Assembly: GCA_023146045.1 (NCBI GenBank)
Contig: JAGLCW010000022.1
Location: 1-52,179 of the forward strand
Length of the DNA: 52,179 nt
Source of the DNA: Caldisericia bacterium
Lineage (GTDB): Bacteria; Caldisericota; Caldisericia; UBA6126
Reading direction: 5' to 3'
How positions within the stretch are numbered: the first letter of the stretch is position 1; every line of letters starts with the position of its first letter. Shown here one piece after another: positions 5,450-49,217 of this stretch. Made by a program: the position numbers and the translations under genes. The notes under the pieces were generated by a model. The model made no database searches, had not been told where the DNA came from, and saw only the letters and a program-made list of their open reading frames with translations.

Positions 5450-6562
5450 TCATTTTGTACATATTGAAGTGATTAGTTCTGTAATCTTTTCTATATCTGA
5501 AAGATATATTGACTCTTTATGTGTATGAACGTCTGTCATACCACAAGCAAAATTAACACACTCCATATTTTTTATTCTATTATTAAAAATATTAGCGTCG
5601 CAACCACCACCACAAACTTTAAAATGAACATCTAGATTCAATTTTTTTGCTTGCGATGTTAAAAGCATCATAAACTCAGTCTTAGTATTTAGCTCAAATG
5701 CCGAATATTTTTCTATTGACTTGTACTCGACTTTAAACCCTGTTTTGTTTCCATCTAGAAAAATACTTTTTATTTGATCATTAATTAAATTAATTTTTAC
5801 ATGATTATGAGAACGTATTTCACCGTCTACATGACATTTATCTGCTACAATGTTATTAGCCTTGCCACCTTTTATCGTCCCAACATTTGTAGTTGTTTCA
5901 TGGTCAATTCTACCAAAAGGGATTTTGCTTATGCATTGACTAGCGTATAGTATTGCACTTTTACCATTTTCAGGTGTCATACCAGCATGAGCAGATACAC
6001 CTGTTATATCAACGTCGAATAAATATTGTGAAGGTCCAGCATACATTATTGTTCCAGGTTTGCCATCAGAATCAATAACTATTCCACGTTTAGAAGTTAT
6101 TAGTGAAAAATCGTAGTTATAGGCTCCAACTAAACCAACTTCTTCCTCAACAGTAAAAGCTACTTGAATTTCAGGGTGTGGTTTATTTGACTCATGGATA
6201 GACATTAAACATTCTATTATGGCTGCTACACCGGCTTTATCGTCTGAACCTAAAATAGTATTACCGTCTGTAGTGTATTTGCCATTTTTCAATTGGTATT
6301 TGATCTTTTCGGTACTCTCAACCGTATCTAAATGGGCTGATAAGAGAATAGAGGGGGTTTTTGAACCCCCTCTATTCTCTAACTTTAAAAACAAATTTCT
6401 TTTTGTTTCGTCTATAGATGCATTTTCTTTTACAAAGAGTGGGATATCTTTTATCAAATCTAATACCACATTTATGGTTTCGTCTTCATTTCCAGATATA
6501 CCGTTTGCAGTCAACAATTTTTCAAATGTTGACTGCAAACGTTCTTTGTTAATTTTCATCAT
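5450..6562 (-). CDS. M20 family peptidase, peptidase T-like
   Basis: 370-residue cytosolic di-zinc aminopeptidase of the M20 (PepT/PepT2) group. The metal and catalytic motifs are all present: SAHLDTVES near residue 75, LGSDDKAG, TVEEEVGLVGA, IDSDG and a C-terminal MTDVHTHKES. It probably trims small peptides, feeding amino acids to the 2-oxoacid oxidoreductase encoded just upstream. The start ATG at 6562 overlaps the gamma-subunit stop by four bases, implying translational coupling. Two long perfect inverted repeats lie within the first 75 codons (6343-6380 and 6502-6541). They keep the frame open and do not destroy conserved motifs. Confidence 0.88.
   Translation of the reverse strand: MMKINKERLQSTFEKLLTANGISGNEDETINVVLDLIKDIPLFVKENASIDETKRNLFLKLENRGGSKTPSILLSAHLDTVESTEKIKYQLKNGKYTTDGNTILGSDDKAGVAAIIECLMSIHESNKPHPEIQVAFTVEEEVGLVGAYNYDFSLITSKRGIVIDSDGKPGTIMYAGPSQYLFDVDITGVSAHAGMTPENGKSAILYASQCISKIPFGRIDHETTTNVGTIKGGKANNIVADKCHVDGEIRSHNHVKINLINDQIKSIFLDGNKTGFKVEYKSIEKYSAFELNTKTEFMMLLTSQAKKLNLDVHFKVCGGGCDANIFNNRIKNMECVNFACGMTDVHTHKESIYLSDIEKITELITSICTK
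6343..6380. repeat. Perfect 17-bp inverted repeat inside peptidase gene
   Basis: The arms 6343-6359 and 6364-6380 are exact reverse complements, separated by a 4-base loop (TTTG). Each arm holds a G5/C5 run. The element encodes about 13 residues (ENRGGSKTPSILL) just before the HLDTV metal-binding strand. A hairpin this long in coding sequence is not explained by protein coding alone. Confidence 0.9.
6502..6541. repeat. Perfect 15-bp inverted repeat near peptidase start
   Basis: The arms 6502-6516 (CGTTTGCAGTCAACA) and 6527-6541 are exact reverse complements around a 10-base loop. The element covers codons 7-20 of the peptidase gene and is unrelated in sequence to the hairpin at 6343. Confidence 0.9.
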
Positions 6563-7092
6563 ACCGAATCGTACCCCATTTTTAAAGCTCTAAAATTTAT
6601 ATCTATAACTTTTTGACCCTTTGCTACGAATTTTTCCTTAATAACTTGCTCGATCGTTTCGTATTTAGCTACATTCTCGATTTTAAGTAAAGCTCCTAGC
6701 ATTACAATGTTCGCAGCTACCTGGTGGCCAGCTTCTTTTGCAATATGGTTTGCAGGTACATAGAAAACATTGATGTCTTTTCTATTTGATTTATCGTTTA
6801 TTAATGCTGAATTAACTAAAAGGTTCCCACCTTTAATGATTGTCGGTTCAAATTTTGTAAAAGATGGAGTATTCATAACAATAGCGTTTTTATGTGTTTG
6901 AGTTACCGGGGAACCTATTTCTTTATCTGAAACCATACACACGCAGTTTGCTGTACCTCCACGCATTTCTGGTCCATATGAAGGAAGGAATAGCGTGAAT
7001 TTATTCTCTCTAACAGCTGCATAAGATAGCAACTGACCTATTGCCATAACACCTTGTCCACCAAATCCAGATGCACATAATTCGAAATTCAT
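6559..7092 (-). CDS. 2-oxoacid:ferredoxin oxidoreductase gamma subunit (VorC-like)
   Basis: 177-residue gamma subunit of a 2-oxoacid:ferredoxin oxidoreductase. It shows the GFGGQGV motif near residue 9 and the PSYGPEMRGGTANC motif, both characteristic of the gamma domain that contacts CoA. The start ATG shares a base with the stop of the beta-subunit gene (TAATG), and its own stop overlaps the peptidase start, so the operon is translationally coupled. It is a separate gene rather than fused to alpha as in large pyruvate enzymes. Assignment to a branched-chain 2-oxoacid enzyme follows from the alpha partner. Confidence 0.9.
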   Translation of the reverse strand: MNFELCASGFGGQGVMAIGQLLSYAAVRENKFTLFLPSYGPEMRGGTANCVCMVSDKEIGSPVTQTHKNAIVMNTPSFTKFEPTIIKGGNLLVNSALINDKSNRKDINVFYVPANHIAKEAGHQVAANIVMLGALLKIENVAKYETIEQVIKEKFVAKGQKVIDINFRALKMGYDSV

Positions 7093-7844
7093 TATAGTCC
7101 CTCCACAGATTTATATTCTCCTAGAGGATAATACTTCATTGTTTCTTCACTAATTCTTTTCAAAGAGTTTACTGGAGACATACCCCAATTTGTTGGGCAG
7201 GTTGAAAGAATTTCTACTAACGAAAACCCTAAGCCTTCTTTTTGTGCTTTAAATGCTTTTCTTATTGCTCTTTTGGTTTTCATTATATTGGCTGGGTTGT
7301 GAACCGAAGTTCTAGCAATATATGCAGGTCCATTTAATGTTGCAAGCATTTCGCTAATTTTTATTGGATAGCCTTCTTTTTTGTAATCTCGTCCAAATGG
7401 TGATGTGGTTGTTTTCCAACCTTCTAATGTTGTTGGAGCCATTTGACCACCAGTCATTCCATATATACCGTTATTTACAAAAATTGTGGTGATATTTTCT
7501 CCTCTTGTAGCAGCATGCACTATTTCAGCTGTACCAATCGAAGCCAAATCTCCGTCACCTTGGTATGTTACTACAGTCTTGTCTGGTAAAGCTCTTTTTA
7601 CGCCTGTCGCAACGGCAGGTGCTCTTCCATGTGCAGCTTGAACTGTATCCATTTCAAAGTAGTGTATAGATAAAGTTGAGCACCCAACAGGAACAACAAT
7701 CACTGTTTCTTCAAACAGGTTCATTTCTTCAATAACCTCACATACTAGGCGGTGAATAACGCCATGGGTACATCCAGGACAATAACTTCTCTTAGTTTTT
7801 GTCAGTAAGGGGGTTACTTTAAATATTTGTTTCATATCATTCAT
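7092..7844 (-). CDS. vorA: 2-oxoacid:ferredoxin oxidoreductase beta subunit (VorA-like)
   Basis: 250-residue thiamine pyrophosphate subunit. YCPGCTHG near residue 22 supplies two cluster cysteines; further Cys residues are in PVGCS and STCPTNWG. The TPP/Mg motif is GDGDLASIGTAEIVHAATRG with a following NNGIYGMTGGQ. Together with the alpha subunit it decarboxylates a 2-oxoacid and passes electrons to ferredoxin, forming an acyl-CoA. It lies 12 bases downstream of vorB. The exact substrate (branched-chain or 2-oxoglutarate) is inferred from similarity of the alpha subunit to VorB and is not proven. Confidence 0.9.
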   Translation of the reverse strand: MNDMKQIFKVTPLLTKTKRSYCPGCTHGVIHRLVCEVIEEMNLFEETVIVVPVGCSTLSIHYFEMDTVQAAHGRAPAVATGVKRALPDKTVVTYQGDGDLASIGTAEIVHAATRGENITTIFVNNGIYGMTGGQMAPTTLEGWKTTTSPFGRDYKKEGYPIKISEMLATLNGPAYIARTSVHNPANIMKTKRAIRKAFKAQKEGLGFSLVEILSTCPTNWGMSPVNSLKRISEETMKYYPLGEYKSVEGL

Positions 7845-7856
7845 ATTAATTCTCCC

Positions 7857-8918
7857 CTAATAGATCTCTCTGATTTTTTCTGCTAATTCGTCTGGACTAG
7901 GTACATTTCCACCGAGTCTTCCATAAAAATTAACAGGCTTTTTAGCATTTACACATAGTTGAACATCTTCAATCATTTGCCCTGCACTGAGTTCAAAAAC
8001 ATAAAAAGCTTTTACATTTTCTTTTTGTAAAGCATTTTTTATGTTTTCTGACGGGAATGGCCAAAGAGTTATAGGTCTAATTAAACCGACTTTAAGACCT
8101 TCTTCTCTAACCTTGTCAATTGCAGTTTTGGCAATTCTTGCTGTTGTTCCATATGCAACGACAACAATTTTTGCATCATCGGTTTTGTATTCTTCACACA
8201 TAACTTCAGTATTTTCGATCTCTTTATATCTTTTCTGCAGTTTGTGGTTGTGTCTTTCTAAACCGTCTAAATCAAGATCTAATGAGTTAATAAGATTTTT
8301 TTCACGTTTTGGATCTCTTCCAGTTGCCGCCCATTCTTTCTTAGCTAGATCTTCAGGTTTTATTTCATCTTTATATTCTACGGCTTCCATAATCTGACCC
8401 AAAAGACCATCACTTAAGATCATTACAGGTATACGGTACTTATCAGCTAAATCAAAAGCTTTAAATATAAGATCTGCTTGTTCCTGTAAATTTGTTGGTG
8501 CTAAAGTGATAATTTTGTAATCACCATGCCCACCGCCTTTTGTAGCCTGGAAATAATCCGCTTGGGAAGGTCCAATCCCTCCTAAGCCAGGTCCACCTCG
8601 CATGACGTTAACAATTACTACTGGTAATTCAGCGCCGGCACAATACGATACACCTTCCATCATAAGGCTTATACCGGGACTAGAGGAAGTAGTCATAACT
8701 CTGTGTCCAGCAGCTGATGCACCATACAACATATTTATTGCAGCAACTTCACTTTCGGCTTGTACAAACGTTCCATTTACTTCAGGTAAACGTTTTGCCA
8801 TATATGCAGGTGCTTCATTTTGTGGCGTAATCGGATATCCAAAATAAAGTCTACATCCTGCCTTAACAGCAGCTTCACCAAGGACTTCAGCGCCCTTCAT
8901 TAGTATTTTATTACCCAT
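7857..8918 (-). CDS. vorB: 2-oxoacid:ferredoxin oxidoreductase alpha subunit VorB-like
   Basis: 353-residue alpha subunit, N-terminal FGYPITPQNE motif, then QAESEVAAINM, TSSSPGISLM and NVMRGGPGLGG. These match the VorB type (3-methyl-2-oxobutanoate oxidoreductase) better than KorA. The ATG at 8918 has an AAAGGAG site at good distance. It is the first gene of the vorBA-gamma-pepT-fba run. No small ferredoxin-like delta subunit gene lies next to this operon, unlike the second set at 49020-51676. Substrate preference cannot be decided from sequence. Confidence 0.9.
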   Translation of the reverse strand: MGNKILMKGAEVLGEAAVKAGCRLYFGYPITPQNEAPAYMAKRLPEVNGTFVQAESEVAAINMLYGASAAGHRVMTTSSSPGISLMMEGVSYCAGAELPVVIVNVMRGGPGLGGIGPSQADYFQATKGGGHGDYKIITLAPTNLQEQADLIFKAFDLADKYRIPVMILSDGLLGQIMEAVEYKDEIKPEDLAKKEWAATGRDPKREKNLINSLDLDLDGLERHNHKLQKRYKEIENTEVMCEEYKTDDAKIVVVAYGTTARIAKTAIDKVREEGLKVGLIRPITLWPFPSENIKNALQKENVKAFYVFELSAGQMIEDVQLCVNAKKPVNFYGRLGGNVPSPDELAEKIREIY

Positions 8919-13957: not shown

Positions 13958-14881
13958 TTACTTATTTAGATGTTGATCTAACCATTCTTTCAATAAGTCA
14001 ATTTGGACTTTATCGGAAACAATACTGTGATAAACAATATCGTGATTTTTATCTACAACGTAGAAGTTTGGTACTCCCGCAACACTATATTTATCGTATG
14101 TTTCGTTATCTATATCTTGCACTACTCTGTAAGAAACGTTATATTTTTCAATTTTCTCATCTCTTACTTTCGTTTGTCCGTTTGTATCAGTATTTACACC
14201 AATTACTCTTACCTTTTTTTCAACATATTCGTTGCTTAAATCTACTAACATTGGCAATGCTTTCAAACAAAACGGACATCTTGTTGCATAAAAGTTTAGT
14301 ATTATATATTCAGTGTCCTGTTTTTCTAGTTCTTTGTAGAGATCAAAGTCAACATCTTTAGTGTCTTTTAAAACAAAATTAGGGGCATTCATTAGAATTC
14401 TTGCTCTTGGTGTACTAAACGCTATTGCATTTGGATCTGGATAGTCAATAAGTGATATACCTATTATTCTTATAATAGTTTCGCTATCAGCGAATAATCT
14501 ATTTTTATATAGTTTTAGTGTTGTTTTTACTTCGTTGTCATCTATAAGTTCAATTTTATCTTTATTTTCGATATATATAGAAAAGGATCCCCATTCTGAA
14601 TCAAACGAAGCAGTAGATATGCTTTGCTTCCAATTGACATCATACCTTAGTGAACTTGTTATGTAACGAAGTGGTATCATATATTTGTTTGATTTGCTAT
14701 CTTTATAAACACTTACCGGCATCTGATAAGGTTGTCCGCCAATTTTAAAAATATACTTATTTTTGTAGAACACAATATCGCATTTAAAATCTTTTGCCTG
14801 TGTATTATTAAAATAACCAGAAGATACTGTAACAAGAACTGCACACAAAAAAACAACTGCAAATTTTACGACATTATTCAA
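13958..14881 (-). CDS. Stalk-domain/TlpA-like thioredoxin fusion, exported
   Basis: 307-residue envelope protein. A signal peptide or membrane anchor (residues 1-25) is followed by a copper-amine-oxidase-N-like stalk region (about 40-150; PLRYITSSLRY motif) and a C-terminal TlpA/ResA-type thioredoxin fold with active site CPFC near residue 200 and cis-Pro in GVPNFYVVD. It probably reduces or exchanges disulfides outside the cytoplasm. A TTG start at 14881 is chosen because AAGGAG is six bases upstream and the signal peptide starts there; an ATG at 14896 lacks a ribosome site. It overlaps the preceding membrane-protein gene by eight bases. Two CxxC proteins just upstream are candidate partners. 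Confidence 0.82.
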   Translation of the reverse strand: MNNVVKFAVVFLCAVLVTVSSGYFNNTQAKDFKCDIVFYKNKYIFKIGGQPYQMPVSVYKDSKSNKYMIPLRYITSSLRYDVNWKQSISTASFDSEWGSFSIYIENKDKIELIDDNEVKTTLKLYKNRLFADSETIIRIIGISLIDYPDPNAIAFSTPRARILMNAPNFVLKDTKDVDFDLYKELEKQDTEYIILNFYATRCPFCLKALPMLVDLSNEYVEKKVRVIGVNTDTNGQTKVRDEKIEKYNVSYRVVQDIDNETYDKYSVAGVPNFYVVDKNHDIVYHSIVSDKVQIDLLKEWLDQHLNK

Positions 14882-15539
14882 AACGCTCTCCTTCATCACA
14901 AATTTTTTGACACTTACTATCAATATCTTTTTTTTCAGTACTAGTTACAGAATTACAGCTACTTTCTTTTTCCATACGATCAGAAAGCTCTTTTTTCTTA
15001 AAATAACTTTCAGCGTTTGGATTGTTACACATATCACATCCAACACAATTAAACTTTCCGAGTTTCTGTCGTATCATACCTATTAATGCCCCAACAAGAA
15101 TAACTGGAAGGAAATATTTCATATACAATAACCATTCAGTGCTGTTTGTTGAGAATATAAAGGTAAAAAGTAACAAACCACCAAAAGCAACTACTGTTGC
15201 AATTGTTGTTAACCAAAAAGGTTTCATTTTAGTTCTAAAACCTGCTACTATCAAAACAAACACTATACTAACTGGAAGAGATATATAATTTATCATGCAT
15301 GGTATAACTAATGAATACAAAAAAGTACTTAAAATTGCGATCCATAAAAGTTTTTTCATGTTAAAATGAAATCTGGTCATAATGAATGAAATATACAATG
15401 CCGGTCTAATGACACATCCTATAACAGGAAGCATCGTTTCAATTAATGGGGCTGTTGCAAGATAAAATATAGTACCAACGGCACTTGTTATAGCAATAAA
15501 CGTAATATCTTTAGTTTCCATCGATAAATTCCATTTCAC
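14874..15539 (-). CDS. Polytopic membrane protein with Cys-rich tail
   Basis: 221-residue protein with about five or six hydrophobic segments between residues 8 and 155, then a polar tail carrying NCVGCDMCN, a CxxCxxC motif. Two further Cys lie near the C-terminus. The membrane part resembles ECF-transporter S-components in general pattern, but no specific family is recognised. The tail could bind a metal or cluster, or take part in thiol exchange. It overlaps the rhodanese gene by 29 bases and the thioredoxin gene by eight, so all three are translationally coupled. The start could instead be the ATG at 15521. Confidence 0.7.
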   Translation of the reverse strand: MKWNLSMETKDITFIAITSAVGTIFYLATAPLIETMLPVIGCVIRPALYISFIMTRFHFNMKKLLWIAILSTFLYSLVIPCMINYISLPVSIVFVLIVAGFRTKMKPFWLTTIATVVAFGGLLLFTFIFSTNSTEWLLYMKYFLPVILVGALIGMIRQKLGKFNCVGCDMCNNPNAESYFKKKELSDRMEKESSCNSVTSTEKKDIDSKCQKICDEGERFE

Positions 15540-16203
15540 CTGTATAATCTTTTACAGAACCACGTAACTTATAAACTCTATGAAAATTTAATCTAATTAG
15601 TGCTTCTCCAGCTAACTTTGTTTCTAGGTAGTTATCACCGACAAATATTACTTCACTCCATCTGTCTAGAGGAAACAAATATGGAACTACTTGCGTTAAG
15701 GGTATCGGAACTGAGTTTTTTATATGTTTCTTTTCCCATTCACCATCTGGTCTAACATCTACAATGAATAGATCTGGATAAAGTTTAACAAGGTCAGGTA
15801 AAGAATCGTAAGTAACGTCTAGAGGATAAAAATACATTGTCTTCTCTAGATCATCACAACCTCCGCCTAAGGCACAAGTTGAACAATCTTCCACCCAGTC
15901 TTGCTTAGAATTTATATAGGATACGAATTTTGCTGTTAGTCTAAACGTTGATAGAAAATCTACTAAGTAAAATTTCATTAAGCGAATTCCTGAGTTTGTC
16001 TTATTTTCGTTTAAAACAGAATTTTCATAAGCATCAATTAACACTCTTTGTGAATCTTTTTCAGAGACTATAATATTTGGTGTGTTTTTAAAGTCTTCGT
16101 ATCGAGTTATAGTTTTATGGTAAACAGAAAATGCAAATACTAAAAATAGTACTAGTGCAACAACGTTAACTATTGTATTTGTCAAACTTGATTTTTTTTT
16201 CAT
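15511..16203 (-). CDS. Membrane-anchored rhodanese-like protein lacking catalytic Cys
   Basis: 230-residue protein with one N-terminal membrane segment (residues 8-28), a middle stretch with three Cys in DCSTCALGGGC, and a C-terminal rhodanese fold containing the FIVDVRPDGEW motif. Aligned to standard rhodaneses, the active-site Cys position is Gly (IFVGDNYLE). The domain is therefore unlikely to be a sulfurtransferase in the classical way and may bind a ligand or partner instead. The CxxC upstream of it could still do redox chemistry. The orientation of the domain, inside or outside, is not certain from sequence. Confidence 0.8.
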   Translation of the reverse strand: MKKKSSLTNTIVNVVALVLFLVFAFSVYHKTITRYEDFKNTPNIIVSEKDSQRVLIDAYENSVLNENKTNSGIRLMKFYLVDFLSTFRLTAKFVSYINSKQDWVEDCSTCALGGGCDDLEKTMYFYPLDVTYDSLPDLVKLYPDLFIVDVRPDGEWEKKHIKNSVPIPLTQVVPYLFPLDRWSEVIFVGDNYLETKLAGEALIRLNFHRVYKLRGSVKDYTGEMEFIDGN

Positions 16204-16219
16204 ATTTATGTTTTTTGTA

Positions 16220-16253
16220 CCATACGCCCAATACTTTTGTATTGGGCGTATGG
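16220..16253. repeat. Perfect 15-bp inverted repeat between NHL and rhodanese genes
   Basis: CCATACGCCCAATAC (16220-16234) and its exact reverse complement (16239-16253) flank a TTTT loop in the 58-base gap of a minus-strand operon. There is no T-run on the downstream (minus-strand) side, so it is not a classical terminator. It could be a processing, stabilising or attenuating hairpin. Confidence 0.88.
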
Positions 16254-16261
16254 CTTAGTTC

Positions 16262-17644
16262 TTATTTTGGGTAATATATGGTTACAGCTGATGCACTGTA
16301 ACGTAAATCTTTTGGATTCCATCCAACCCAACAATTCAATGCCTCAGCAACAAAACGAATTGGAACAAAAGTTCTTCCGCGTTTTATTAATGGAGCGACT
16401 CCGTCAGGTATTGGATAAGGTTTACCATTAATTTTACCAGTGGTGTTTCCTATCCAGATTTCAACAGTATTTGATCCTAGCTTAACGGTAACTTTACTTT
16501 CATTACCATCCCAACCTACTTCCGCGCCTAAACCTTCTGATATAGCTCTTAGTGGAACTAATGTTCTCCCATTTTGGATAAATGGTGGAGCATCAACTCT
16601 TTTTACTTCGTCATTAACAGTCATGATGTATTTTTTAATAAAAACACGGACTATTTGTCTTGTAATGTTTGGTGGATTAATTGCATTTTTAATAACTAAT
16701 AGTTGCTTTCCATTTTGATCAAATTTGAAAACACTATTCTGAGCAATATCAGTTACCCAAATGCTATTAGCTGTATCAATAGTAAGAGCAGAAGCTTTTT
16801 TTACTCCAGGTAAACTTATAGACTTAATAAATTTGTGGTCTGGGGCAAACACATGTACTTTTTTTGAACCTCTATCAAGTACATAAATTTTATTACCTTG
16901 AGAACTTAAAAAATCTACACCAATGTCACAAGGATCAGAGAATTTACCTTTAATCTCACCGGTATATTTTCCTTTAAGGTTATATATAGCTATACGTTTA
17001 TTCCCAGTATCTGCTACAAGGAGATCATGATTTTTCGCATAGCTCATACCTTCTGGTCTTTTTAATTTCTGTACAGCCGTTCCGGTATTACCAAAATCTC
17101 TTACAAAGGTTCCGTCACGTGGGTCTTTAATTCCTCCAGGTGGTGGGGTCCAATGAGACACTTTGCTTTGTTTTCTGTCTAATAGAGCTTGAGATTTAAT
17201 TTCATCAATCTCAGTCATTGCTACATCCCACATTTCGGTCAATTTACCTGGACCAACTCCTGCTTGACCATTTTTGTGGTGAGTATGTCCGTTTAACTCA
17301 TATATAAATGAATGTCCTGTGACAGCATCTGCTACACCGATTACATCAGTTAAACGACATGTAATAATATCTACACATTTTTTCAAAACCCATTTTTCTC
17401 CAGAGGTGTGAGTAGCAACAGTTGGGATTGCAACTGCAAGATATGTACCGTCTGTTGAATATTTTAAAACCCTGTTTTTAATTGGGTCAGAGACATATAT
17501 GTAATATCCGAATGAATTGGTGTAAATCCCAATTTTGTCAGGTGAAGCAGCTATAATTTTGGAATTACCAATGCCTGGTACAAATTGAATACCAAAAAGC
17601 ATTGTTCCTACTAAAACTAAAGATAATATTTTTTTTATATTCAT
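16262..17644 (-). CDS. Secreted NHL-repeat protein with copper-amine-oxidase-like stalk domain
   Basis: 460-residue exported protein. A signal peptide (1-33) is followed by NHL-type beta-propeller repeats (about 35-325; motifs such as LLVADTGNKRIAIYN, KIYVLDRGSKKVHVF and IWVTDIAQNSVFKF). The C-terminal 115 residues form a copper-amine-oxidase-N stalk domain with paired GRTLVPLRAISEGLGAEVGW and GRTFVPIRFVAEAL motifs. A His-rich patch (GHTHHKNG) lies in the propeller. Such stalks are common on surface proteins of anaerobes; despite the name they do not imply copper oxidation. It lies 15 bases after the haem-domain lipoprotein gene. Ligand unknown. Confidence 0.86.
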   Translation of the reverse strand: MNIKKILSLVLVGTMLFGIQFVPGIGNSKIIAASPDKIGIYTNSFGYYIYVSDPIKNRVLKYSTDGTYLAVAIPTVATHTSGEKWVLKKCVDIITCRLTDVIGVADAVTGHSFIYELNGHTHHKNGQAGVGPGKLTEMWDVAMTEIDEIKSQALLDRKQSKVSHWTPPPGGIKDPRDGTFVRDFGNTGTAVQKLKRPEGMSYAKNHDLLVADTGNKRIAIYNLKGKYTGEIKGKFSDPCDIGVDFLSSQGNKIYVLDRGSKKVHVFAPDHKFIKSISLPGVKKASALTIDTANSIWVTDIAQNSVFKFDQNGKQLLVIKNAINPPNITRQIVRVFIKKYIMTVNDEVKRVDAPPFIQNGRTLVPLRAISEGLGAEVGWDGNESKVTVKLGSNTVEIWIGNTTGKINGKPYPIPDGVAPLIKRGRTFVPIRFVAEALNCWVGWNPKDLRYSASAVTIYYPK

Positions 17645-17659
17645 AGTTTCAAGCTCCTA

Positions 17660-18685
17660 TTAATCAGTTATGGTTTTTCCGACCATACGTAAGGTAGATG
17701 CGGTATCTGGTGTAAAATGATCATCTCTTTGACCAAGAGTGTGATAATTTGGGGCAAAAAGGAAATCTGCGTAACCATCATCGCTTACTTCAAAATGAGT
17801 TAGGTCTAGCGCTGATGGGTTTCTTGGTCTTGCGATTTCTAATATATAACCACCAAACTCAAACAATCCTACAGCACTTACTAATGCAGCATCACCGGAA
17901 GGTTGTTTATCGTTAACAATGTATAATGGAGCATTTTCTCCACCTTCAGCTGGTTCATTTGCGTCTTCTGCGCGATTGTATACAAATCCATATTCACCTG
18001 GTAATTTCTCCCAAGTAATTTTGTTGTCAAAATTTTCAGCATCGATATCTATATCAGATTCTACATTTGTCCAAAGATAAGATGCCATGATACCTTTCAT
18101 TCCACTTACAGCAGGGCTCCAAACCCAAAGCTCAATTATGTCACCAGTAATTTCTGTTCCCATGTATCTATTGTTTAGAACATTTGATGCATCATGGCAT
18201 AAAGGAGTGCAACCAGTTTCCGCAAAATCTGGTAAATCACATAAATCCCAAGCAATAGAGAATGTATCCATTGTTGAATCCCAAGTCCATGTTCCATCTT
18301 CTTTTGTGTACCAATGCCCAGCAGTGCTATCTGTTGGTTCATTTGTCATTTCAGAAATCCAGTTAAACAAGAAGTATACGTTGTCGTTGTCATAGTAAGA
18401 TTTAACATCAATAAATTTACTACTTTCAAGTTCAATTTGTGTGTATTCCATGTTTGCCCATACTTCTTCGTTTTCGATACCATCTAAAGTTGGTTTTACA
18501 TCTACAAATCCACAATTCACAATTGTTGCAGTTTGATCCTCAGGTAAATTACCAGTTTCTTGTTCTTGTTGATTATTATCGTTGTTCGGTTCTGTAGTAG
18601 TTTTATCACCACACCCTACCAAGCAAGAAAAACATAGTACTCCAGCTAATGTTAAACCTAAAAGTTTGTTAACGTTATTCTTCAT
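17660..18685 (-). CDS. Lipoprotein with ethylbenzene-dehydrogenase-type haem-binding domain
   Basis: 341-residue predicted lipoprotein (lipobox ending in LVGC, Cys25) with an acidic and polar linker, then an EB_dh-like domain of the kind seen in the haem-b gamma subunits of DMSO-reductase-family enzymes. Supporting features are DVKPTLDGIENEEVWANMEYT, YYDNDNVYFLFNW and the ending with REWRYDFLF-like ADFLFAPN. A CTPLCHDAS motif (CxxxCH, near residue 158) is reminiscent of, but not identical to, CxxCH haem-c sites. It could be an extracytoplasmic electron carrier. No molybdenum catalytic subunit is encoded nearby. The domain call rests on pattern recognition and is moderately secure. Confidence 0.72.
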   Translation of the reverse strand: MKNNVNKLLGLTLAGVLCFSCLVGCGDKTTTEPNNDNNQQEQETGNLPEDQTATIVNCGFVDVKPTLDGIENEEVWANMEYTQIELESSKFIDVKSYYDNDNVYFLFNWISEMTNEPTDSTAGHWYTKEDGTWTWDSTMDTFSIAWDLCDLPDFAETGCTPLCHDASNVLNNRYMGTEITGDIIELWVWSPAVSGMKGIMASYLWTNVESDIDIDAENFDNKITWEKLPGEYGFVYNRAEDANEPAEGGENAPLYIVNDKQPSGDAALVSAVGLFEFGGYILEIARPRNPSALDLTHFEVSDDGYADFLFAPNYHTLGQRDDHFTPDTASTLRMVGKTITD

Positions 18686-18694
18686 TCTATCCTC

Positions 18695-21600
18695 CTAACC
18701 AGTATAAACTAGATCAATACGGCCTTCAATTTCTCTGTCTACTGTTCCTTCTTTTTCAACATATTCAAACACACTTTCTCTTAAGGTTTTGTCCGAATAT
18801 TTGAGGATTTCAGCGTTTGCAAACCAAACATAACCATCCAAGCCACGTCTCATAGATTCAGTAGTAACAACTTTATACATTTGTTCTGACTCGAATGTTT
18901 CTCCGTTGTTAAGCGTACATTCTACTATTCTATCGTAAAGGAATCTAAGGTTATCGTATGCAAATTTAACTCCAGAAACTTGTGTCATTCCATAGCTAAA
19001 TGTACAACCATGTTCAAAAACCATTATCAAGTCTTCACCTTTGATTTCAAGTAAAACTAAATCTTCATCTTTCGGTAAAACGTCCATAATGTTTTCTGCT
19101 GTAATATCTCCTGCATCTATGTTTGCCTTAATTAACCCAGGAGTTATGCAGGATATTTGTGCTCCGTCATCTTCCATATCGTAGCGCATGATGTCTGAAA
19201 TTAAGTTACCAAGTGTTGATTCTCCACCGCTGCTAATGGTCATTCCATTTTTGGATTTCCCAATAATATTTTCTAACTCGGTGTTGTATTTTTTATTGTA
19301 TTCTTCAAAAATCTCATATGATTTTGCAGAAGGTTTAACATCATCAATGTATGAATATTGATTAGTTGTTTGAATTTTTTCAATATTCTTTGTAATTGAG
19401 TCAACAATTATTTTAATTTCACCTAAAGAATTACCATATCTTCCTGGAGCTATTATTTTTACACCTTTGTATTCAAAAGAATACCCATAATCGTTATCTA
19501 AAGCAATGACAAATGATGGTTTTGGGTTCAATTTTTCAATAAAGCTTGCCAGTACGGGTGTAAGTTCGCCATTCAAATCTACTCTACTGTCAATTCCTAT
19601 TGTCAAAATTGATACGTTTGCTCCATCATCTTTAAGCTTTTTCAACATTTCGTTTGCTGAAGAAACTGAGTCTTTAATATCTATTGCCGAAGAAATTTCT
19701 GGATGTAAATAAGGTTTTTCAATTGAAAAACCTGTTACTCCGGTAATTCCAACTTTGATTCCAGAAAAATCTCTAATGACATGGTCTTTGTAAAGAGGTT
19801 TACTTGTTTTTTTGCTGTAAATATCAGCAGCAACAATATCAATATTCTCGTTAATAGTATTTAGAGGTTCAAATCCATAAAAGAAATCTTCATCAGATAA
19901 ACCCAATACTCCGTAATTCATTTCTTGATATTGCTTAACAACATACTCTCCCTTTGACAAATATGAAAGTGAAGAACCCATTAGGAAATTACCAGCATCA
20001 ATTGCCATAAAATTAGTATTACGTTTTTCGAGGTTACTGATATATGATGCTATAGAAGCAAAACCACCTATTGGTCTATCTTCCATAGGATCTCTATAAA
20101 GAGAGTGAATTAAATTGGCCACATTTCCAGTTGATCCAATCATTACTACTGGATAATGTGCTCTAAATACAATAGTTGCAGTTTCTGCACGTGAGATTGA
20201 TTTTTTTGGTCTGATCGTTCCATCAGAGTATCCTGTTAGTAATCCGTTGTCGTATGCATATACCATGTATGGGAACGCTAGCTCGGAAATATTTTCCCAA
20301 TCCTTTACTTTTGATTTAAAGTTTGCTAAAGAATCTGAAGAGTTTGTGGGTTTGTCTGGGTTGTTAGTGTATGCTATGGTGAGTTCTATCATTGCTTCTT
20401 CACGAGTGATTGGTTTATTTGGCATAAATATATTAGTATCTGCGAATGGAATCATTTTTTTTGCTAGCGCACCTTCGACAATTCCATAATACCAATCAGT
20501 TTTTTTAACATCTTTAAAACTTGGGGTTCCTGGTTTTAGTTGTGGTATTGAGTAACCATTCATTACAACAGTTGTATACTCCGCTCTTGTAATCAGGTTA
20601 TTTGGTTTAAAACTACCGTCGGTGTAGCCTTTAAGCACCTTTTTTTCTACCAAGAAACTTATAGGTTCACTCGCCCAATGATCTAAATAATCTGGCACTG
20701 TATACCATTCTCCAGATGTCATTGGTGAAATTTTATTATCAGGTATATCGTATAAGTAATCTATCAATGCTTTTCTAACAGTTTTTCTGGAATTTTTCTT
20801 AATTGAAACATTTGCAAGAGAGTCTGGTCTACCTGAACCAGCTACTAATGCTGCAGTTACAGCAACATCATAAGATTTTGCTAAATCAATTTGTTGCCCA
20901 AGAACTTTTAGATTTAATACTTTTTGTTTGTCTGGTTTTTTCAAATCAAGTTTAAACGAAAAGCCTTTTGTACTAATTCCAGCACTTTCAATACCAAATG
21001 CTAAACTATTACCAGTATCTTCTAAAACATCTTTAATTTTCTGCCCAGTAAGTGCCACTGTATAAATAGTATCTTCGCTTGCTAAAAGACTATAAACATC
21101 ACCATAAGTTAGTGGTCCTTTGTTTAGATTATGTAGAAGTTCTGAAGGTTGTGCCATTGCAAGCGGAGTGTTTGATACCTTTGTTAGTGTATCTAGCAAT
21201 AAATTTGATAAACTAGTTGGATGGTAAGTACTACCAGAAAAAGTAAATGTCTTAGTAGCTGTACCGACTAATTCGTTAAATGTGTTATCTGCACTCTTTT
21301 GATATGTTTCTACAAGTTTTTTTATTTCTATATCTTCTGAGATTGCTTGTCCAATTTTTACGACTTTTCCTGTTATAAGTCTATTACCATTCTCTTTTTT
21401 CATAACTTCATAAGGTTTTACAGGACATTTACACTTTTCAAGCATTAATTCAATACGTGATACACCAAGAGCATAACGTCCTGGTGAAGAAATCAGAACA
21501 TCGTGTTCTGGAAATTCATCAGTATCGGAATATAGTATTTGCTCGCCAGATATTGGATCATCAGCTGCAGATATACAAACGTCTATTCTTGATCTATGTA

Positions 21601-22357
21601 ATATTTCATTTAAAAATGACTTTTCTCTTTTTTCTGGATCTGTTTCCCATTTCAAGTCAGTGAGCAAAATAATAAAGTCTGCTCTTTCGATTTCTTTTAA
21701 AACATCACTTGAACGGATTACTTCTTCTACAGGATCGTAAAACTCTATACCACTTATGTTTTCGCTAGGTATAGCATTTATTCTTGATGGATCAGGAAGT
21801 GAAATAACAGCAATTTTTAAAACATGTGCTGAATTTGGCACATCATATACAAGCATTCTATGATCTGAAGCATATAAGCTTCCACTTTTGTATGCATTTG
21901 TACAAACCCACGTGAAATCACTTTCTCTTTTTCTAGCATCTCTGATTTGTTGAGGCATAGAAAAATCCAATGACGTATATCCAGCAACATCATATTTCAA
22001 GTTGTTCATTACAGATACAACAGGATGAGCTTTTCCAGCTATTGGCTTTTGTGTGTAATAAGTTGCAAGATCGGAACCGAACAATGTATTACCTGCATCA
22101 ATAAGCATGGAATAACCTTCACGGTTACCAGTTTCTCTGCGAATTTGATCAATAACAGTTGCTGCCTTTGTTAGTCCACCTTCATTAATGCTTGGGCCAT
22201 ATTTGAAGGGAACAAGTTGTCCTCTAACATTACCAGTGGCAAGTACAACAAATGGAAAAATATCCAAAGCTTTTGTTTTGGACACATTCACCATAAAAGC
22301 ACTTAAAGCCATAACCAAAGTTAGCGTAACAACAAAAATACGCTTAGTTATATTCAC
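18695..22357 (-). CDS. SLH-anchored protein with two degenerate 5'-nucleotidase modules
   Basis: 1220-residue surface protein: signal peptide (1-31), metallophosphoesterase-like domain (about 34-330), 5'-nucleotidase C-terminal-like domain (about 345-550), three SLH repeats (about 556-736), then a second phosphoesterase-like domain (about 738-1000) and a better conserved 5'-nucleotidase C-terminal domain (about 1020-1215; ESTLGNLISDIMR). In both phosphoesterase copies the metal-ligand motifs have decayed: TNDxHG is TGNV, the DAGD motif is DAGN and GNHEFD is lost. It is probably a surface binding or structural protein, not an enzyme. The GTG at 22357 has GGAGG seven bases upstream. It heads the cluster. 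Confidence 0.85.
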   Translation of the reverse strand: MNITKRIFVVTLTLVMALSAFMVNVSKTKALDIFPFVVLATGNVRGQLVPFKYGPSINEGGLTKAATVIDQIRRETGNREGYSMLIDAGNTLFGSDLATYYTQKPIAGKAHPVVSVMNNLKYDVAGYTSLDFSMPQQIRDARKRESDFTWVCTNAYKSGSLYASDHRMLVYDVPNSAHVLKIAVISLPDPSRINAIPSENISGIEFYDPVEEVIRSSDVLKEIERADFIILLTDLKWETDPEKREKSFLNEILHRSRIDVCISAADDPISGEQILYSDTDEFPEHDVLISSPGRYALGVSRIELMLEKCKCPVKPYEVMKKENGNRLITGKVVKIGQAISEDIEIKKLVETYQKSADNTFNELVGTATKTFTFSGSTYHPTSLSNLLLDTLTKVSNTPLAMAQPSELLHNLNKGPLTYGDVYSLLASEDTIYTVALTGQKIKDVLEDTGNSLAFGIESAGISTKGFSFKLDLKKPDKQKVLNLKVLGQQIDLAKSYDVAVTAALVAGSGRPDSLANVSIKKNSRKTVRKALIDYLYDIPDNKISPMTSGEWYTVPDYLDHWASEPISFLVEKKVLKGYTDGSFKPNNLITRAEYTTVVMNGYSIPQLKPGTPSFKDVKKTDWYYGIVEGALAKKMIPFADTNIFMPNKPITREEAMIELTIAYTNNPDKPTNSSDSLANFKSKVKDWENISELAFPYMVYAYDNGLLTGYSDGTIRPKKSISRAETATIVFRAHYPVVMIGSTGNVANLIHSLYRDPMEDRPIGGFASIASYISNLEKRNTNFMAIDAGNFLMGSSLSYLSKGEYVVKQYQEMNYGVLGLSDEDFFYGFEPLNTINENIDIVAADIYSKKTSKPLYKDHVIRDFSGIKVGITGVTGFSIEKPYLHPEISSAIDIKDSVSSANEMLKKLKDDGANVSILTIGIDSRVDLNGELTPVLASFIEKLNPKPSFVIALDNDYGYSFEYKGVKIIAPGRYGNSLGEIKIIVDSITKNIEKIQTTNQYSYIDDVKPSAKSYEIFEEYNKKYNTELENIIGKSKNGMTISSGGESTLGNLISDIMRYDMEDDGAQISCITPGLIKANIDAGDITAENIMDVLPKDEDLVLLEIKGEDLIMVFEHGCTFSYGMTQVSGVKFAYDNLRFLYDRIVECTLNNGETFESEQMYKVVTTESMRRGLDGYVWFANAEILKYSDKTLRESVFEYVEKEGTVDREIEGRIDLVYTG

Positions 22358-29358: not shown

Positions 29359-29880
29359 ATGTCAAATGAATTTTTTGTAAAAAATGCAATCTATTTTGAG
29401 TTTTCTGTTTTTATTCTTGCTTTAGTTATTACGTTTTGGATCATCATTGATTCTTCAAGAAGATATAGAAACAAATGGATAATGCCAATTGCGGCCATAA
29501 CTATTTCTTTTGGACCATTCATTATCAGTAAAATACTTACCACAGGAAGCATGTATCTAATGCTTTCATCTTTAGCTGTTTGGGTTCTATATATGGTTAT
29601 TAGACCTGAATACACTCTAGAAGAAGAAAGACTTCTAGAAACCGAAGGAAGAATTAGAGATTTAACAAAAAGATATTACGAGTATGAATTGAGTAAAAGC
29701 GGTAATGTTTGCCCTGTTTGTGGTTTACCTATTGATAAAGATTACAAAATTTGCCCAAATTGTTTTACACATCTAAGGAAAGTGTGTCCAAATTGTAAAC
29801 ACCTTGTTGATGTTGACTGGACCGCGTGTCCATATTGTGAAACAAGATTGGATAAAAAGGATGCAATAGATGAAGAGTAA
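29359..29880 (+). CDS. Membrane protein with double zinc ribbon
   Basis: 173-residue protein with two or three hydrophobic segments in the first 90 residues (about 10-30, 40-57, 65-85), a charged linker, and a C-terminal double zinc ribbon of four CxxC knuckles (CPVC, CPNC, CPNC, CPYC, about 117-163). The role is unknown; it may bind zinc and a protein partner on the cytoplasmic side. GGAGGTG precedes the ATG. It overlaps rnfC by 11 bases, so it may be part of the rnf operon. Confidence 0.75.
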   Translation: MSNEFFVKNAIYFEFSVFILALVITFWIIIDSSRRYRNKWIMPIAAITISFGPFIISKILTTGSMYLMLSSLAVWVLYMVIRPEYTLEEERLLETEGRIRDLTKRYYEYELSKSGNVCPVCGLPIDKDYKICPNCFTHLRKVCPNCKHLVDVDWTACPYCETRLDKKDAIDEE

Positions 29881-31195
29881 AACATTCTCACCTGGTGGCA
29901 TGCATATACCAGACCACAAAGATCTAACCAAGAATCTACCCATTGAGGATATGAAGCCAGGAAAGGATCTTTTATTTCCATTAACCCAACATATTGGTGT
30001 GCCGTCTGAAGCTATAGTTAAAAAAAATGACATAGTGAAGATTGGTCAAGTAATTGCAAAGGCAAAAGGCAATTTTTCTACAAACATACATTCTTCTGTT
30101 TCTGGTGTTGTAAAAGATATTAAAGAGTATCCACATTCAATAGAAGGTCTTTCAATGGCAATACATATTGAAAATGACTTTAAAGACGAATGGTGTGAAG
30201 AAATAAAACAGCCAAATATTACAACATTAACACAAAAAGAACTCGCAAAAATAATACAGGATTCTGGTATTGTAGGAATGGGTGGAGCACAATTTCCTAC
30301 ACATATTAAACTGCAGCCTCCGAGTAATGTTAAAGTGGATACTCTTGTTATAAATGGTGCAGAGTGTGAACCATATCTAACCTGCGATCATAGAATCATG
30401 CTAGAAAAAACTGATGAGATTATTGATGGGATAAACATTGTAAGTTCTGTAATCCCTTTTGATCGAGTCCTTATTGGTGTCGAAAACAATAAAATGGATG
30501 CCGTTGAAGCAATAAACCAATATGTTCAAAAGCATAAAACTACAGTAAATATTCAAGCTATTCCTTTAGAAAAGAAATATCCACAAGGAGCCGAGAAAAA
30601 TTTGATTCAAGCCCTTACTGGTAGAATTGTTCCTATAGGTAAACTACCTTTTGAAGTTGGATGTATTGTTCAAAATGTTGCTACATTAAAAGCCATTTCT
30701 CACGCTGTAAGAATGGGTACTCCAATGATAGACAGGGTTCTAACAGCAACTGGTGATTGTTTAAAAGAACCGAAAAATATTAGGGTTCGACTAGGAACGC
30801 TGCTTTCTGATGTTGTCGGATACTGCGGTGGATTTGTAAAAGAACCAAAGGAACTTGTTTTTGGTGGACCAATGATGGGTATCAATCAAAGATCTCAAGA
30901 TGTTCCAGTATTAAAAGGCACATCTGGAATAATATTTCTTAGCGAGTTGGAAGATCTGAATGAGGGGAGTTGTATTCGCTGTGGTAGATGTATTGAAAAT
31001 TGTCCCATGGGTCTTATGCCATACCGTATTGTTGAACTTACAAAAAATAAAAAATATCAAGAAACAGAAAGATATTTTTCGACATCCTGCATTGAATGTG
31101 GACTTTGCACATATAACTGCCCTTCAAGAATTCCTGTTCTAAATTATATAAGAACTAGCAAAAGTGAAGTTATTCGCTTAAGGAGAAAATCATGA
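29870..31195 (+). CDS. rnfC: Rnf complex subunit RnfC
   Basis: 441-residue peripheral NADH- and FMN-binding subunit of the ferredoxin:NAD+ oxidoreductase (Rnf). GMGGAQFPTHIK, INGAECEPYLTCDHR and the C-terminal pair of [4Fe-4S] motifs (CIRCGRCIENCP and CIECGLCTYNCP) are present. It begins inside the zinc-ribbon gene and overlaps rnfD by four bases. The order rnfC-D-G-E-A-B is that of Clostridium-type complexes. Together with ApbE encoded downstream, the set looks complete and functional. Confidence 0.96.
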   Translation: MKSKTFSPGGMHIPDHKDLTKNLPIEDMKPGKDLLFPLTQHIGVPSEAIVKKNDIVKIGQVIAKAKGNFSTNIHSSVSGVVKDIKEYPHSIEGLSMAIHIENDFKDEWCEEIKQPNITTLTQKELAKIIQDSGIVGMGGAQFPTHIKLQPPSNVKVDTLVINGAECEPYLTCDHRIMLEKTDEIIDGINIVSSVIPFDRVLIGVENNKMDAVEAINQYVQKHKTTVNIQAIPLEKKYPQGAEKNLIQALTGRIVPIGKLPFEVGCIVQNVATLKAISHAVRMGTPMIDRVLTATGDCLKEPKNIRVRLGTLLSDVVGYCGGFVKEPKELVFGGPMMGINQRSQDVPVLKGTSGIIFLSELEDLNEGSCIRCGRCIENCPMGLMPYRIVELTKNKKYQETERYFSTSCIECGLCTYNCPSRIPVLNYIRTSKSEVIRLRRKS

Positions 31196-32148
31196 GTCGT
31201 TATGTAATTACTGCTTCACCTCATATTCGAAATAAGGTGAACACTGTATTCTTAATGAATACAGTTAGTATATCTCTTTTGCCTGCCGCCATGGGCGGTA
31301 TTTTTATATTTGGGTGGAAGAATACTCTTCCAGTAATTCTTGTTTCAATCGTTTCTGCAATTCTTAGCGAAGGTCTTTTACAAAAAATGTTAAAAATGCC
31401 TTTAACTTGGTTTGACGGAAGTGCAGCCTTGACAGGTTTTCTCCTTGCCCTTACTTGTCCACCAGGCATACCTATCTGGCTTCCAGTTGTCGGTACTATT
31501 TTTGCAATTTTCTCAAAACAAGTTTTTGGTGGTTTAGGCCAAAATCCTTTTAATCCTGCGTTAATTGGTAGAGCTTTTATGGTTCTATCATTCCCGGTAT
31601 ATATGACTTCATGGATGAAACCTTTTTCTATGGTTACATCATCAACTCCACTTGCACTATATGCTGAAAACGGTGGTATGAAATCAGTTTTAGCATTTTT
31701 CCAAGGAAACGTTCCAGCAATGTATAAGTCAATGTTTCTTGGTATCAGGGGTGGCAGCATAGGAGAGGTTTTTATTCCAGGATTACTTCTTGGATTGGTT
31801 GTTCTCCTTTTAACCAAAACGATTAAATGGCAAATTCCTGTATCTTACTTAGGTACAGTATTCTTACTTTCGTGGCTATTTGGAATGGATCCTGTATTTT
31901 CTATACTTAGCGGTGGTGTTATGTTTGGTGCATTTTTTATGGCAACAGACTATGTAACGTCACCAATGCTTCCAAAAAATCAACTTATTTATGGTTTCGG
32001 ATGTGGTCTTCTAAACGTATTAATTAGAGTTTTTGCAAATATGCCAGAAGGCACTACGTTTGCAATTCTCCTGATGAATGTTGTAACACCAATACTTGAC
32101 AGAAAAATAAAAAAACCTGTCGGTTACATCGTTGATGGAGCTAAATAA
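31192..32148 (+). CDS. rnfD: Rnf complex membrane subunit RnfD
   Basis: 318-residue integral membrane subunit related to NqrB, carrying covalent FMN on a Thr. The flavinylation site is the SSTPLALYAENGG stretch near residue 150. Many hydrophobic helices, LLALTCPPGIPIWLPVVG, GGLGQNPFNPALIGRAF and the ATDYVTSPM motif match RnfD. ATG overlaps the rnfC stop. Its stop shares a base with the rnfG start. Confidence 0.95.
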   Translation: MSRYVITASPHIRNKVNTVFLMNTVSISLLPAAMGGIFIFGWKNTLPVILVSIVSAILSEGLLQKMLKMPLTWFDGSAALTGFLLALTCPPGIPIWLPVVGTIFAIFSKQVFGGLGQNPFNPALIGRAFMVLSFPVYMTSWMKPFSMVTSSTPLALYAENGGMKSVLAFFQGNVPAMYKSMFLGIRGGSIGEVFIPGLLLGLVVLLLTKTIKWQIPVSYLGTVFLLSWLFGMDPVFSILSGGVMFGAFFMATDYVTSPMLPKNQLIYGFGCGLLNVLIRVFANMPEGTTFAILLMNVVTPILDRKIKKPVGYIVDGAK

Positions 32149-32753
32149 TGAAAACAAATCCAACTAAACAAATAGTTAAACTTGGGATAATTCTTTCTAT
32201 ATATTGCATAGTCGCAGCACTTGCACTAAGTGTAACTTATTCAGTTACACTTCCAAAAATTCAAGAGCAACAAAGATTATCTACTGAACGAAGTATGAAA
32301 AGTGTATATCCAAATGCTAGTAGTTTTTCGGTAGTTACAAATGAAAATAACGATGAACTATTCTGCTCTATTGAAGTTGAAAGTGGTGTATTAATAGATT
32401 CCCTTTATATGGCAAATGATTCCAATAGCTCATTAATCGGGTTCGTTGTAAAAGCATCAAGTCAAGGTTATGGAGGTCTAATCATGTTTGTTTATGGAAT
32501 CAATCCAGACAAAACAATAGAGGCCGTTTCCATAATAGAACAAACAGAAACACCAGGATTAGGTGCAAATGTATACAAATCGTCCTTTTTGGATCAGTTT
32601 TCTAAGAAAAATGTTACAGACTCTTTTATTGTAAAACAAGATGTTACTCCCATTACGGCTTCTACAATAACATCTAAGGCATTAACAAATGGTATTAAAA
32701 AATCAGTAGATTTCCTGCTCGAACATCATCAGGAGATGACAGATGAAAAATAA
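32148..32753 (+). CDS. rnfG: Rnf complex flavoprotein subunit RnfG
   Basis: 201-residue subunit with one N-terminal membrane helix and an extracytoplasmic FMN-binding domain. The covalent flavin motif is ITASTITSKAL near the C-terminus (residues 168-178), the expected target of the ApbE encoded at 37464. QTETPGLGANV is another family signature. It overlaps rnfE by 11 bases. An imperfect but complete length argues for a functional subunit. Confidence 0.95.
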   Translation: MKTNPTKQIVKLGIILSIYCIVAALALSVTYSVTLPKIQEQQRLSTERSMKSVYPNASSFSVVTNENNDELFCSIEVESGVLIDSLYMANDSNSSLIGFVVKASSQGYGGLIMFVYGINPDKTIEAVSIIEQTETPGLGANVYKSSFLDQFSKKNVTDSFIVKQDVTPITASTITSKALTNGIKKSVDFLLEHHQEMTDEK

Positions 32754-33360
32754 TTTACTAAAAATATTCACTAAAGGATTGTTTATTGAGAATCCAGTAT
32801 TTATTCTAATGCTTGGGTTATGTTCTGTTTTAGCAGTTTCAGTATCTGTTATAAATGCATTGGGTATGACGCTAGCTTTTACATTTGTAATTGTCCTTTC
32901 TGAGTTAACAATTTCATTGATCCGAAATTGGATACCAAAAACACTACGTATTCCTATTTTTATTGTAATTATCGCTAGTTTTGTGACAATACTTCAATTT
33001 TTACTTCAGGCATACCTTCCAGCATTAAACAAATCATTAGGAATTTTTATTCCACTAATCGTTGTGAACTGTATAATTATTGGTCGCATTGAGTCTTTTG
33101 CATCAAAACGACCAGTTGTTGAGTCTATACTTGATGGACTTGGTATTAGTTTAGGATATGGTATTGCGATTGTTTTGATAGCAGTAGTTCGAGAAATTCT
33201 CGGTAGCGGATCAATATTAGGAATTCAGCTTTTTGGAAGTTCATTTCAGCCTGCCCTAATGTTTATTTTACCACCTGGAGCATTCCTTGTTATTGGTATT
33301 GAAATTGGTGCATTAAATGCTTTCATGAAGAAATATAATAAAAAAGTGTGTAGTCGATGA
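32743..33360 (+). CDS. rnfE: Rnf complex membrane subunit RnfE
   Basis: 205-residue integral membrane subunit related to NqrD. It shows the twin motif FIPLIVVNCIIIGR near residue 103 and LGISLGYGIAIVLIAVVREILGSGS, plus GLCSVLAVS in the first helix. A conserved Cys in the VNC motif is a proposed ligand of the membrane iron-sulfur cluster shared with RnfA. It overlaps rnfA by four bases. Confidence 0.95.
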   Translation: MKNNLLKIFTKGLFIENPVFILMLGLCSVLAVSVSVINALGMTLAFTFVIVLSELTISLIRNWIPKTLRIPIFIVIIASFVTILQFLLQAYLPALNKSLGIFIPLIVVNCIIIGRIESFASKRPVVESILDGLGISLGYGIAIVLIAVVREILGSGSILGIQLFGSSFQPALMFILPPGAFLVIGIEIGALNAFMKKYNKKVCSR

Positions 33361-33932: not shown

Positions 33933-33933
33933 T

Positions 33934-37462: not shown

Positions 37463-37463
37463 A

Positions 37464-49019: not shown

Positions 49020-49217
49020 TTGAAAAACGTTGAAAAGATTGTCATAAGCGAGAAACGCTGTAAACGTTGTGGTATTTGTGTTAAATTTTGTCCGACTGGT
49101 GTGCTTGCGCAAGATGCCTCTGGCTCTGTTTTTGTTGAAGATATTTCATCATGCATTGCCTGTATGTCTTGTCAAGACCATTGTCCTGACTTAGCAATTG
49201 AGGTTTTTATATCATGA
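49020..49217 (+). CDS. korD: 2-oxoacid:ferredoxin oxidoreductase delta subunit, 2[4Fe-4S] ferredoxin
   Basis: 65-residue ferredoxin-like subunit with two cluster motifs, CKRCGICVKFCP (14-25) and CIACMSCQDHCP (44-55). It relays electrons from the thiamine subunit to ferredoxin. TTG start at 49020 with a GCGGGGA site upstream. It overlaps korA by four bases and begins the korDABC operon. Confidence 0.93.
   Translation: MKNVEKIVISEKRCKRCGICVKFCPTGVLAQDASGSVFVEDISSCIACMSCQDHCPDLAIEVFIS

Follow-up and report, generated by a model that had tools for sequence, protein, structure and literature searches.

A Caldisericia envelope gene cluster that may encode an extracytoplasmic haem-protein module

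Study of a 52,179-nt stretch of DNA (the window, which is one contig of the draft genome of a Caldisericia bacterium) revealed six consecutive open reading frames (ORFs), all on the minus strand between positions 13958 and 22357, for an SLH-pseudonucleotidase, an EB_dh lipoprotein, an NHL beta-propeller with a stalk domain, a degenerate rhodanese, a polytopic membrane protein and a stalk-thioredoxin fusion (Table 1; coordinates are positions of the window). The intergenic gaps are 9, 15, 58, -11 and -23 bp when ATG 15521 is taken as the start of the polytopic protein and ATG 14896 as that of the thioredoxin. The compact co-directional arrangement described in a first-pass annotation, some start codons of which were slightly corrected here, is therefore borne out, with spacings from -23 to +58 bp. 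The host genome, hereafter G000, is a metagenome-assembled draft of 1.95 Mb, 94% complete. It was compared within a set of 49 genomes of the class, in which G001-G005 are its relatives and f1, f2 and f6 are families. We propose, with a probability of about 0.4, that the locus belongs to a Caldisericia-specific extracytoplasmic haem-protein module that would give 2-oxoacid fermentation an outlet for its electrons.

Table 1. Positions of the cluster genes and of redox genes elsewhere in the window
Feature	Position	Strand	Details
SLH-pseudonucleotidase, exported, predicted scaffold role	18695..22357	-	GTG start; Pfam 5_nucleotid_C x2, SLH x3
EB_dh (DOMON-like) lipoprotein, predicted haem binder	17660..18685	-	lipobox LVGC; Pfam EB_dh; Foldseek
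NHL beta-propeller, secreted, with C-terminal stalk Cu_amine_oxidN1	16262..17644	-	Pfam NHL and Cu_amine_oxidN1
Degenerate rhodanese, single transmembrane segment, predicted extracytoplasmic	15511..16203	-	Pfam Rhodanese 3.2e-9
Polytopic protein, six transmembrane segments, predicted S-component (ECF/BtuM-like) fold	14874..15521	-	no Pfam family
Stalk-thioredoxin fusion (stalk and AhpC-TSA/thioredoxin), ResA/TlpA-like	13958..14896	-	active-site CPFC
VorB, VorA, VorC 2-oxoacid:ferredoxin oxidoreductase	6559..8918	-	followed to 4401 by PepT-like peptidase and aldolase; linked context, outside the cluster proper
RNF genes rnfC, rnfD, rnfG-like (FMN_bind), further subunits, rnfB	29870..34758	+	
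ApbE flavin transferase	37464-38453		

The grouping exceeds chance, and its co-conservation is well supported. G001, G002 and G005 have the SLH, EB_dh, NHL, rhodanese and polytopic genes in this order, and so do G003 and G004 up to the ends of their contigs; the thioredoxin gene is found at the locus in the host, G001 and G005 and is missing from it in G002 and G003. In f6, a separate and more distant family, three genomes have the NHL, rhodanese and polytopic genes side by side, and EB_dh lies outside the cluster, being in five genomes the first gene of a VorBAC-PepT operon, with a gap of about 10 bp. This f6 operon (L017, L018, L019, L020, L021) couples the gene of a secreted haem lipoprotein with those of a cytosolic oxidoreductase. 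The co-conservation that the first-pass annotation had proposed as a check is confirmed: the order recurs in five relatives and the core in f6, but the six genes are not the conserved unit. That unit is the three-gene core of NHL-stalk, membrane rhodanese and polytopic protein. Class-wide, EB_dh occurs in 11 of the 49 genomes, spread over three families, and the polytopic protein in 9 of these 11 and in none of the 38 others; the two EB_dh genomes without it are 69% and 74% complete. A scan of a genome collection with the NHL alignment brought back only relatives already known, all titled Caldisericia or Caldiserica save one. As described below, the set is confined to relatives with an enzyme that attaches haem to cytochrome c, which makes a new electron-handling device a more probable explanation than chance.

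The proposal centres on the EB_dh lipoprotein, which scores 36.8 bits against the Pfam EB_dh family (cut-off 33.3) and whose model has as best Foldseek matches NXR-C (7b04_C, 4e-7) and EbdC (2ivf_C, 1.6e-6). The haem ligands of NXR-C, Met155 and Lys305, follow the arrangement of EbDH (PMC8387239). The corresponding predicted ligands here are M175, invariant in the seven sequences aligned, and H323, a position occupied by His in six of the seven and by Lys in one; the spacing between the two is 148 residues, compared with 150 in NXR-C. Eleven residues ahead of M175, at residues 159-164, all seven aligned EB_dh proteins have a CX3CH motif, for which the expectation is about 0.001 per protein, and across 12 loci EB_dh is the only protein of at least 90 amino acids with either CX2CH or CX3CH. 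The canonical CXXCH was not found in the lipoprotein. CX3CH is not universal in the EB_dh family, since a distant Bradyrhizobium plasmid protein with EB_dh, found in a plasmid search (L115:2440-4044), does not contain it. In the Bradyrhizobium protein the EB_dh domain is C-terminal and is preceded by an N-terminal membrane domain that is cytochrome b561-like by eye.

The distribution of haem lyases matches that of EB_dh: of the 49 genomes, Cytochrom_C_asm proteins of the CcmF/NrfE type were found in exactly the 11 that have EB_dh and were absent from the remaining 38. The lyase gene is located outside the cluster. All of CcmA, B, C, E and F are present in f6 (L084), the only family with CcmE; in f1 and f2 the CcmF/NrfE-like lyase occurs without CcmE (L079:4100-6292, L081:7770-10010, L082:4558-6771). 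The distribution of DsbD/CcdA was also considered as a link and was rejected, these proteins being present in 29 of the 49 genomes with no correlation. Ferrochelatase was found in none of the 49 genomes, and a search for the Ahb proteins, made because of this absence, disclosed in the host a complete operon for haem synthesis by the sirohaem route (L112:1179-11782), with HemA, HemL, HemB, HemC, CobA-HemD, CysG-N, AhbA, AhbB, AhbC/NirJ1 and NirJ2/AhbD. The last carries a double name since the models do not separate NirJ2 cleanly from AhbD: in G000 the gene scores above the NirJ2 cut-off and below that of AhbD. Taken together, the fold, the ligand positions, the co-occurrence with the lyase and the haem biosynthesis operon make haem binding by the lipoprotein, already suggested in the first-pass annotation, well supported, and the haem may be covalently bound.

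The polytopic protein had been described by its CxxCxxC tail. According to the structure model it is probably not a generic CxxCxxC redox protein and has the fold of an S-component, of the energy-coupling factor (ECF) or BtuM-like type: the top five Foldseek folds are all ECF S-components (RibU, YkoE), with a probability of 1.00 and E values of 0.007-0.09 for a model whose predicted local distance difference test (pLDDT) score is 57, and at the sequence level the PDB gave a single match, again the S-component YkoE (E 0.95). Hydropathy and the K/R pattern predict six transmembrane (TM) segments with both termini in the cytosol. Helix 1 contains an AxxxA motif (AITSA, ALFGA or ALFSA), or GxxxA in G001 and f6; in S-components, an AxxxA-type motif in this helix is the ECF docking motif (PMC11109136). 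The CbiQ/EcfT family is represented in 43 of the 49 genomes, including G000 and all those of f6, and the polytopic protein may function as an S-component. Five cysteines are invariant, namely C36 and C75 (numbered from ATG 15521), which are predicted to face outward, and three in the cytosolic tail, CxGCxxC. These cysteines had raised the idea of a DsbD-like thiol conduit, which was dropped once the fold search gave S-components. BtuM, which has the S fold, binds cobalamin with the cobalt ligated by its single invariant outer cysteine (PMC6072759). By this precedent, a tetrapyrrole is a reasonable candidate ligand of the polytopic protein.

The same precedent, corrin binding through a cysteine in BtuM (PMC6072759), may be used to argue that the cluster is a dedicated island for cytochrome c maturation. 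Its main job would then be the assembly of EB_dh, whatever EB_dh does: thioredoxin and rhodanese would maintain the thiols of CX3CH in reduced form, and in families lacking CcmC and CcmE the CcmF-like lyase would receive its haem from the S-component protein. The lyase without CcmE in f1 and f2, the ResA-like thioredoxin and the invariant CX3CH all fit such a role. However, f6 retains the core despite having CcmA, B, C, E and F, the thioredoxin gene is missing from the locus in G002 and G003, and covalent haem is only predicted, so that we consider this explanation unlikely.

Among the other members, the SLH protein consists of a degenerate 5'-nucleotidase unit, three SLH repeats and a second degenerate unit, and is 47-76% identical in three relatives. 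Metallophos was not matched in it by the Pfam search. Alignment of unit 2 to 3ivd showed DAGD changed to DAGN, GNHE to xSDE and the later His ligands lost; unit 1, by inspection, looks equally degenerate. In the rhodanese the active-site Cys is missing from every sequence aligned, the loop being VGDNYLETK or similar, and there is an upstream cluster of cysteines, of which C110 and C116 are invariant in eight sequences and C107 is invariant in f1/f2. Judging by these residues, catalytic degeneracy of both the rhodanese and the nucleotidase units is well supported, and a catalytic part of either in the thiol or sulfur handling entertained in the first-pass annotation is not upheld. This also bears on the possibility that rhodanese, thioredoxin and a nucleotidase fold related to SoxB act on external thiosulfate, polysulfide or sulfur. 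The rhodanese and thioredoxin folds, the place of SoxB in the nucleotidase superfamily and the respiration of sulfur compounds by cultured Caldisericum (PMC7203096) are in keeping with it, but with the active-site Cys and the metal ligands gone and no sulfur reductase in the cluster, we regard it as very unlikely.

The stalk-thioredoxin is intact as far as its sequence tells, CPFC being kept; its gene overlaps the polytopic gene by 23 bp from ATG 14896, and the automatic ORF call starts at TTG 14923. In G005 an additional gene (L014:925-1368) separates the polytopic and thioredoxin genes; its product is a small lipoprotein that weakly matches DUF4920 and contains a CxxxC motif. Downstream, in the host, the thioredoxin gene is followed after 15 bp by a cupin gene of the glucose-6-phosphate-isomerase type (13160-13942), absent from this place in the relatives read; given this short distance, it is probably on the same transcript as the six genes, which may thus exceed six genes in the host. 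The NHL-stalk protein is the most conserved member of the cluster (55-79% in f1/f2), and its N-terminal part is His-rich and near-invariant. In G009 a divergent tandem paralogue of it is encoded directly upstream (L058:6911-8428). Cu_amine_oxidN stalk domains are many per genome across the class, often with 10 to 30 scored matches, so that the stalk domain alone says little on function. The SLH and stalk proteins might act as scaffolds.

Caldisericia are mostly uncultured fermenters, of which few respiratory parts are known. The idea of an outlet for 2-oxoacid fermentation derives from the position of EB_dh at the head of the Vor operon in f6 and near Vor in f1, with a few genes between the cluster and the homologous Vor operon downstream, and from the RNF and ApbE genes of the window. 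The RNF cluster is likely the energy-conserving core of the host fermenter. The RNF region (29359-38453) also codes, between the RNF genes and ApbE, for a protein of 931 aa whose match to IgGFc_binding is borderline, and a second 2-oxoacid:ferredoxin oxidoreductase operon is found at 49214-51676, on the strand opposite to that of the 6559-8918 operon. Genes for a molybdenum alpha or Fe-S beta subunit were found neither in the cluster of the window nor in the loci of the relatives, and molybdopterin oxidoreductase (PF00384) was not found in G000 (a 94% complete draft), G005 or any f6 genome, in keeping with the first-pass annotation, which saw no classical catalytic oxidoreductase. Closely spaced CXXCH pairs were not found in G000-G004 with a pattern that covers close spacings only. 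Outside f1, matches to the multihaem pattern were scattered singles, which the reversed control gives too, and were discarded as noise.

In the mechanism that we propose, the redox centre would be the EB_dh lipoprotein, a single-haem beta-sandwich like NXR-C and EbdC working with no molybdenum enzyme. Its haem would be ligated by Met175 and His323 and may be attached via CX3CH by the CcmF/NrfE-like lyase that always accompanies EB_dh. The ResA-like stalk-thioredoxin, where present, and the Cys-bearing membrane rhodanese would keep the cysteines reduced or position them, the S-component-fold protein would handle a cofactor, possibly a tetrapyrrole on its outward-facing Cys as in BtuM, and the SLH-pseudonucleotidase and NHL-stalk proteins would hold the assembly in the envelope. 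Electrons would pass from Vor to ferredoxin, RNF, a putative carrier, the EB_dh haem and finally an external acceptor or partner. Surface electron transfer, one of the roles put forward in the first-pass annotation, stays an inference. Members of the class are described as having a normal two-membrane envelope (PMC7203096), and 'surface' may therefore mean the periplasm or the outer membrane, a choice that the SLH domains leave undecided.

Several points weigh against an electron outlet of this kind. No carrier was identified that would take electrons from RNF to EB_dh, the cysteines of CX3CH might form a disulfide instead, and the model of the polytopic protein is of low confidence (mean pLDDT 57). 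The genomes that share EB_dh and the lyase all fall into three families, so that the co-occurrence may go back to no more than one or two evolutionary events. In f1/f2 there is one Cytochrom_C_asm gene per genome (two fragments in G004), leaving no CcmC, and because CcmE is absent as well, haem delivery to the lyase is unexplained in these families; strong AhbD-like matches were not found in G003 and G004. The fold of EB_dh is, moreover, common to CBM9, structures of which occupy Foldseek ranks 4-6, next after EbdC and NXR-C. The lipoprotein might then be a CBM9-like carbohydrate binder and no haem protein, in a cluster devoted to cell-wall or S-layer architecture, with which the SLH and stalk domains would agree, haem in EB_dh being only predicted. 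Yet the score of EB_dh above the Pfam cut-off, the conservation of the Met and His/Lys positions and of CX3CH, and the exact match to the haem-lyase distribution make this highly improbable.

Finally, EB_dh is unlinked from the core in f6, and the two parts may differ in function. They could be independent and merely side by side in f1/f2, the haem lipoprotein serving 2-oxoacid oxidation and the NHL, rhodanese and S-component proteins forming an importer of a vitamin or cofactor that uses a shared ECF module, with its exported members binding the ligand on the outside. The S-component fold, the AxxxA/GxxxA motif in TM1, the wide occurrence of CbiQ/EcfT noted above and the NHL propeller, a possible ligand binder, all speak in favour of this division. 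It does not account well for the finding that the core occurs only alongside EB_dh and the CcmF-like lyase (9 of 11 genomes versus 0 of 38), and a plain vitamin importer would not usually have five invariant cysteines; we find it somewhat doubtful.

If the electron-outlet reading is true, Caldisericia would have, in a conserved haem module linked to 2-oxoacid oxidation, a testable route of electron disposal, in which an EB_dh haem protein functions without a molybdenum enzyme. It would possibly also reveal a CcmF lyase functioning without CcmE in f1/f2, and a role of the S-component fold in electron transfer or haem maturation. A bolder version, which we think quite improbable, is that EB_dh is a new kind of c-type cytochrome, in which a DOMON fold like that of NXR-C receives haem through CX3CH via a stripped-down CcmF-only system, with a BtuM-like cysteine S-component protein supplying or holding the haem, and which provides a cytochrome-poor electron outlet in Caldisericia.

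No described system with such a set of genes came up in a literature search, in agreement with the view taken in the first-pass annotation that the cluster matches no known system, and the systems closest to it each share some features only. The gamma subunits of type II dimethyl sulfoxide (DMSO) reductases (EbdC, NXR-C, DdhC, SerC, ClrC) have in common with the cluster protein the EB_dh haem fold, the Met at the predicted ligand position, nearly the same spacing to the second such position and export, but the cluster protein is a lipoprotein with His for Lys in six of seven sequences, an extra CX3CH and no molybdenum alpha or Fe-S beta partner; the absence of the molybdenum partner excludes it from membership of the DMSO-reductase gamma subunits. 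The Geobacter ExtHIJKL outer-membrane conduit likewise includes a rhodanese-family envelope protein within an electron-transfer gene cluster (PMC6148476). Unlike it, the Caldisericia cluster has a single-TM rhodanese, no barrel that could be found and no multihaem cytochrome; nor does it count as a conduit of the Geobacter type, since no clusters of multihaem motifs were detected in the host family as far as the pattern reaches. The polytopic protein differs from ECF S-components and solitary BtuM in its second outer Cys, its cytosolic CxGCxxC tail and its rhodanese and NHL-stalk neighbours, and resembles them in its predicted six TM segments and cytosolic termini, AxxxA/GxxxA in helix 1, predicted S fold and, for BtuM, an invariant Cys near the outer surface. 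Last, in contrast to Ccm maturation, the lyase is outside the cluster, f1/f2 are without CcmE and the target would be CX3CH and not CXXCH, whereas the ResA-like thioredoxin and the co-occurring CcmF/NrfE-type lyase are features shared with cytochrome c maturation of the CcdA/ResA type and of the Ccm type.

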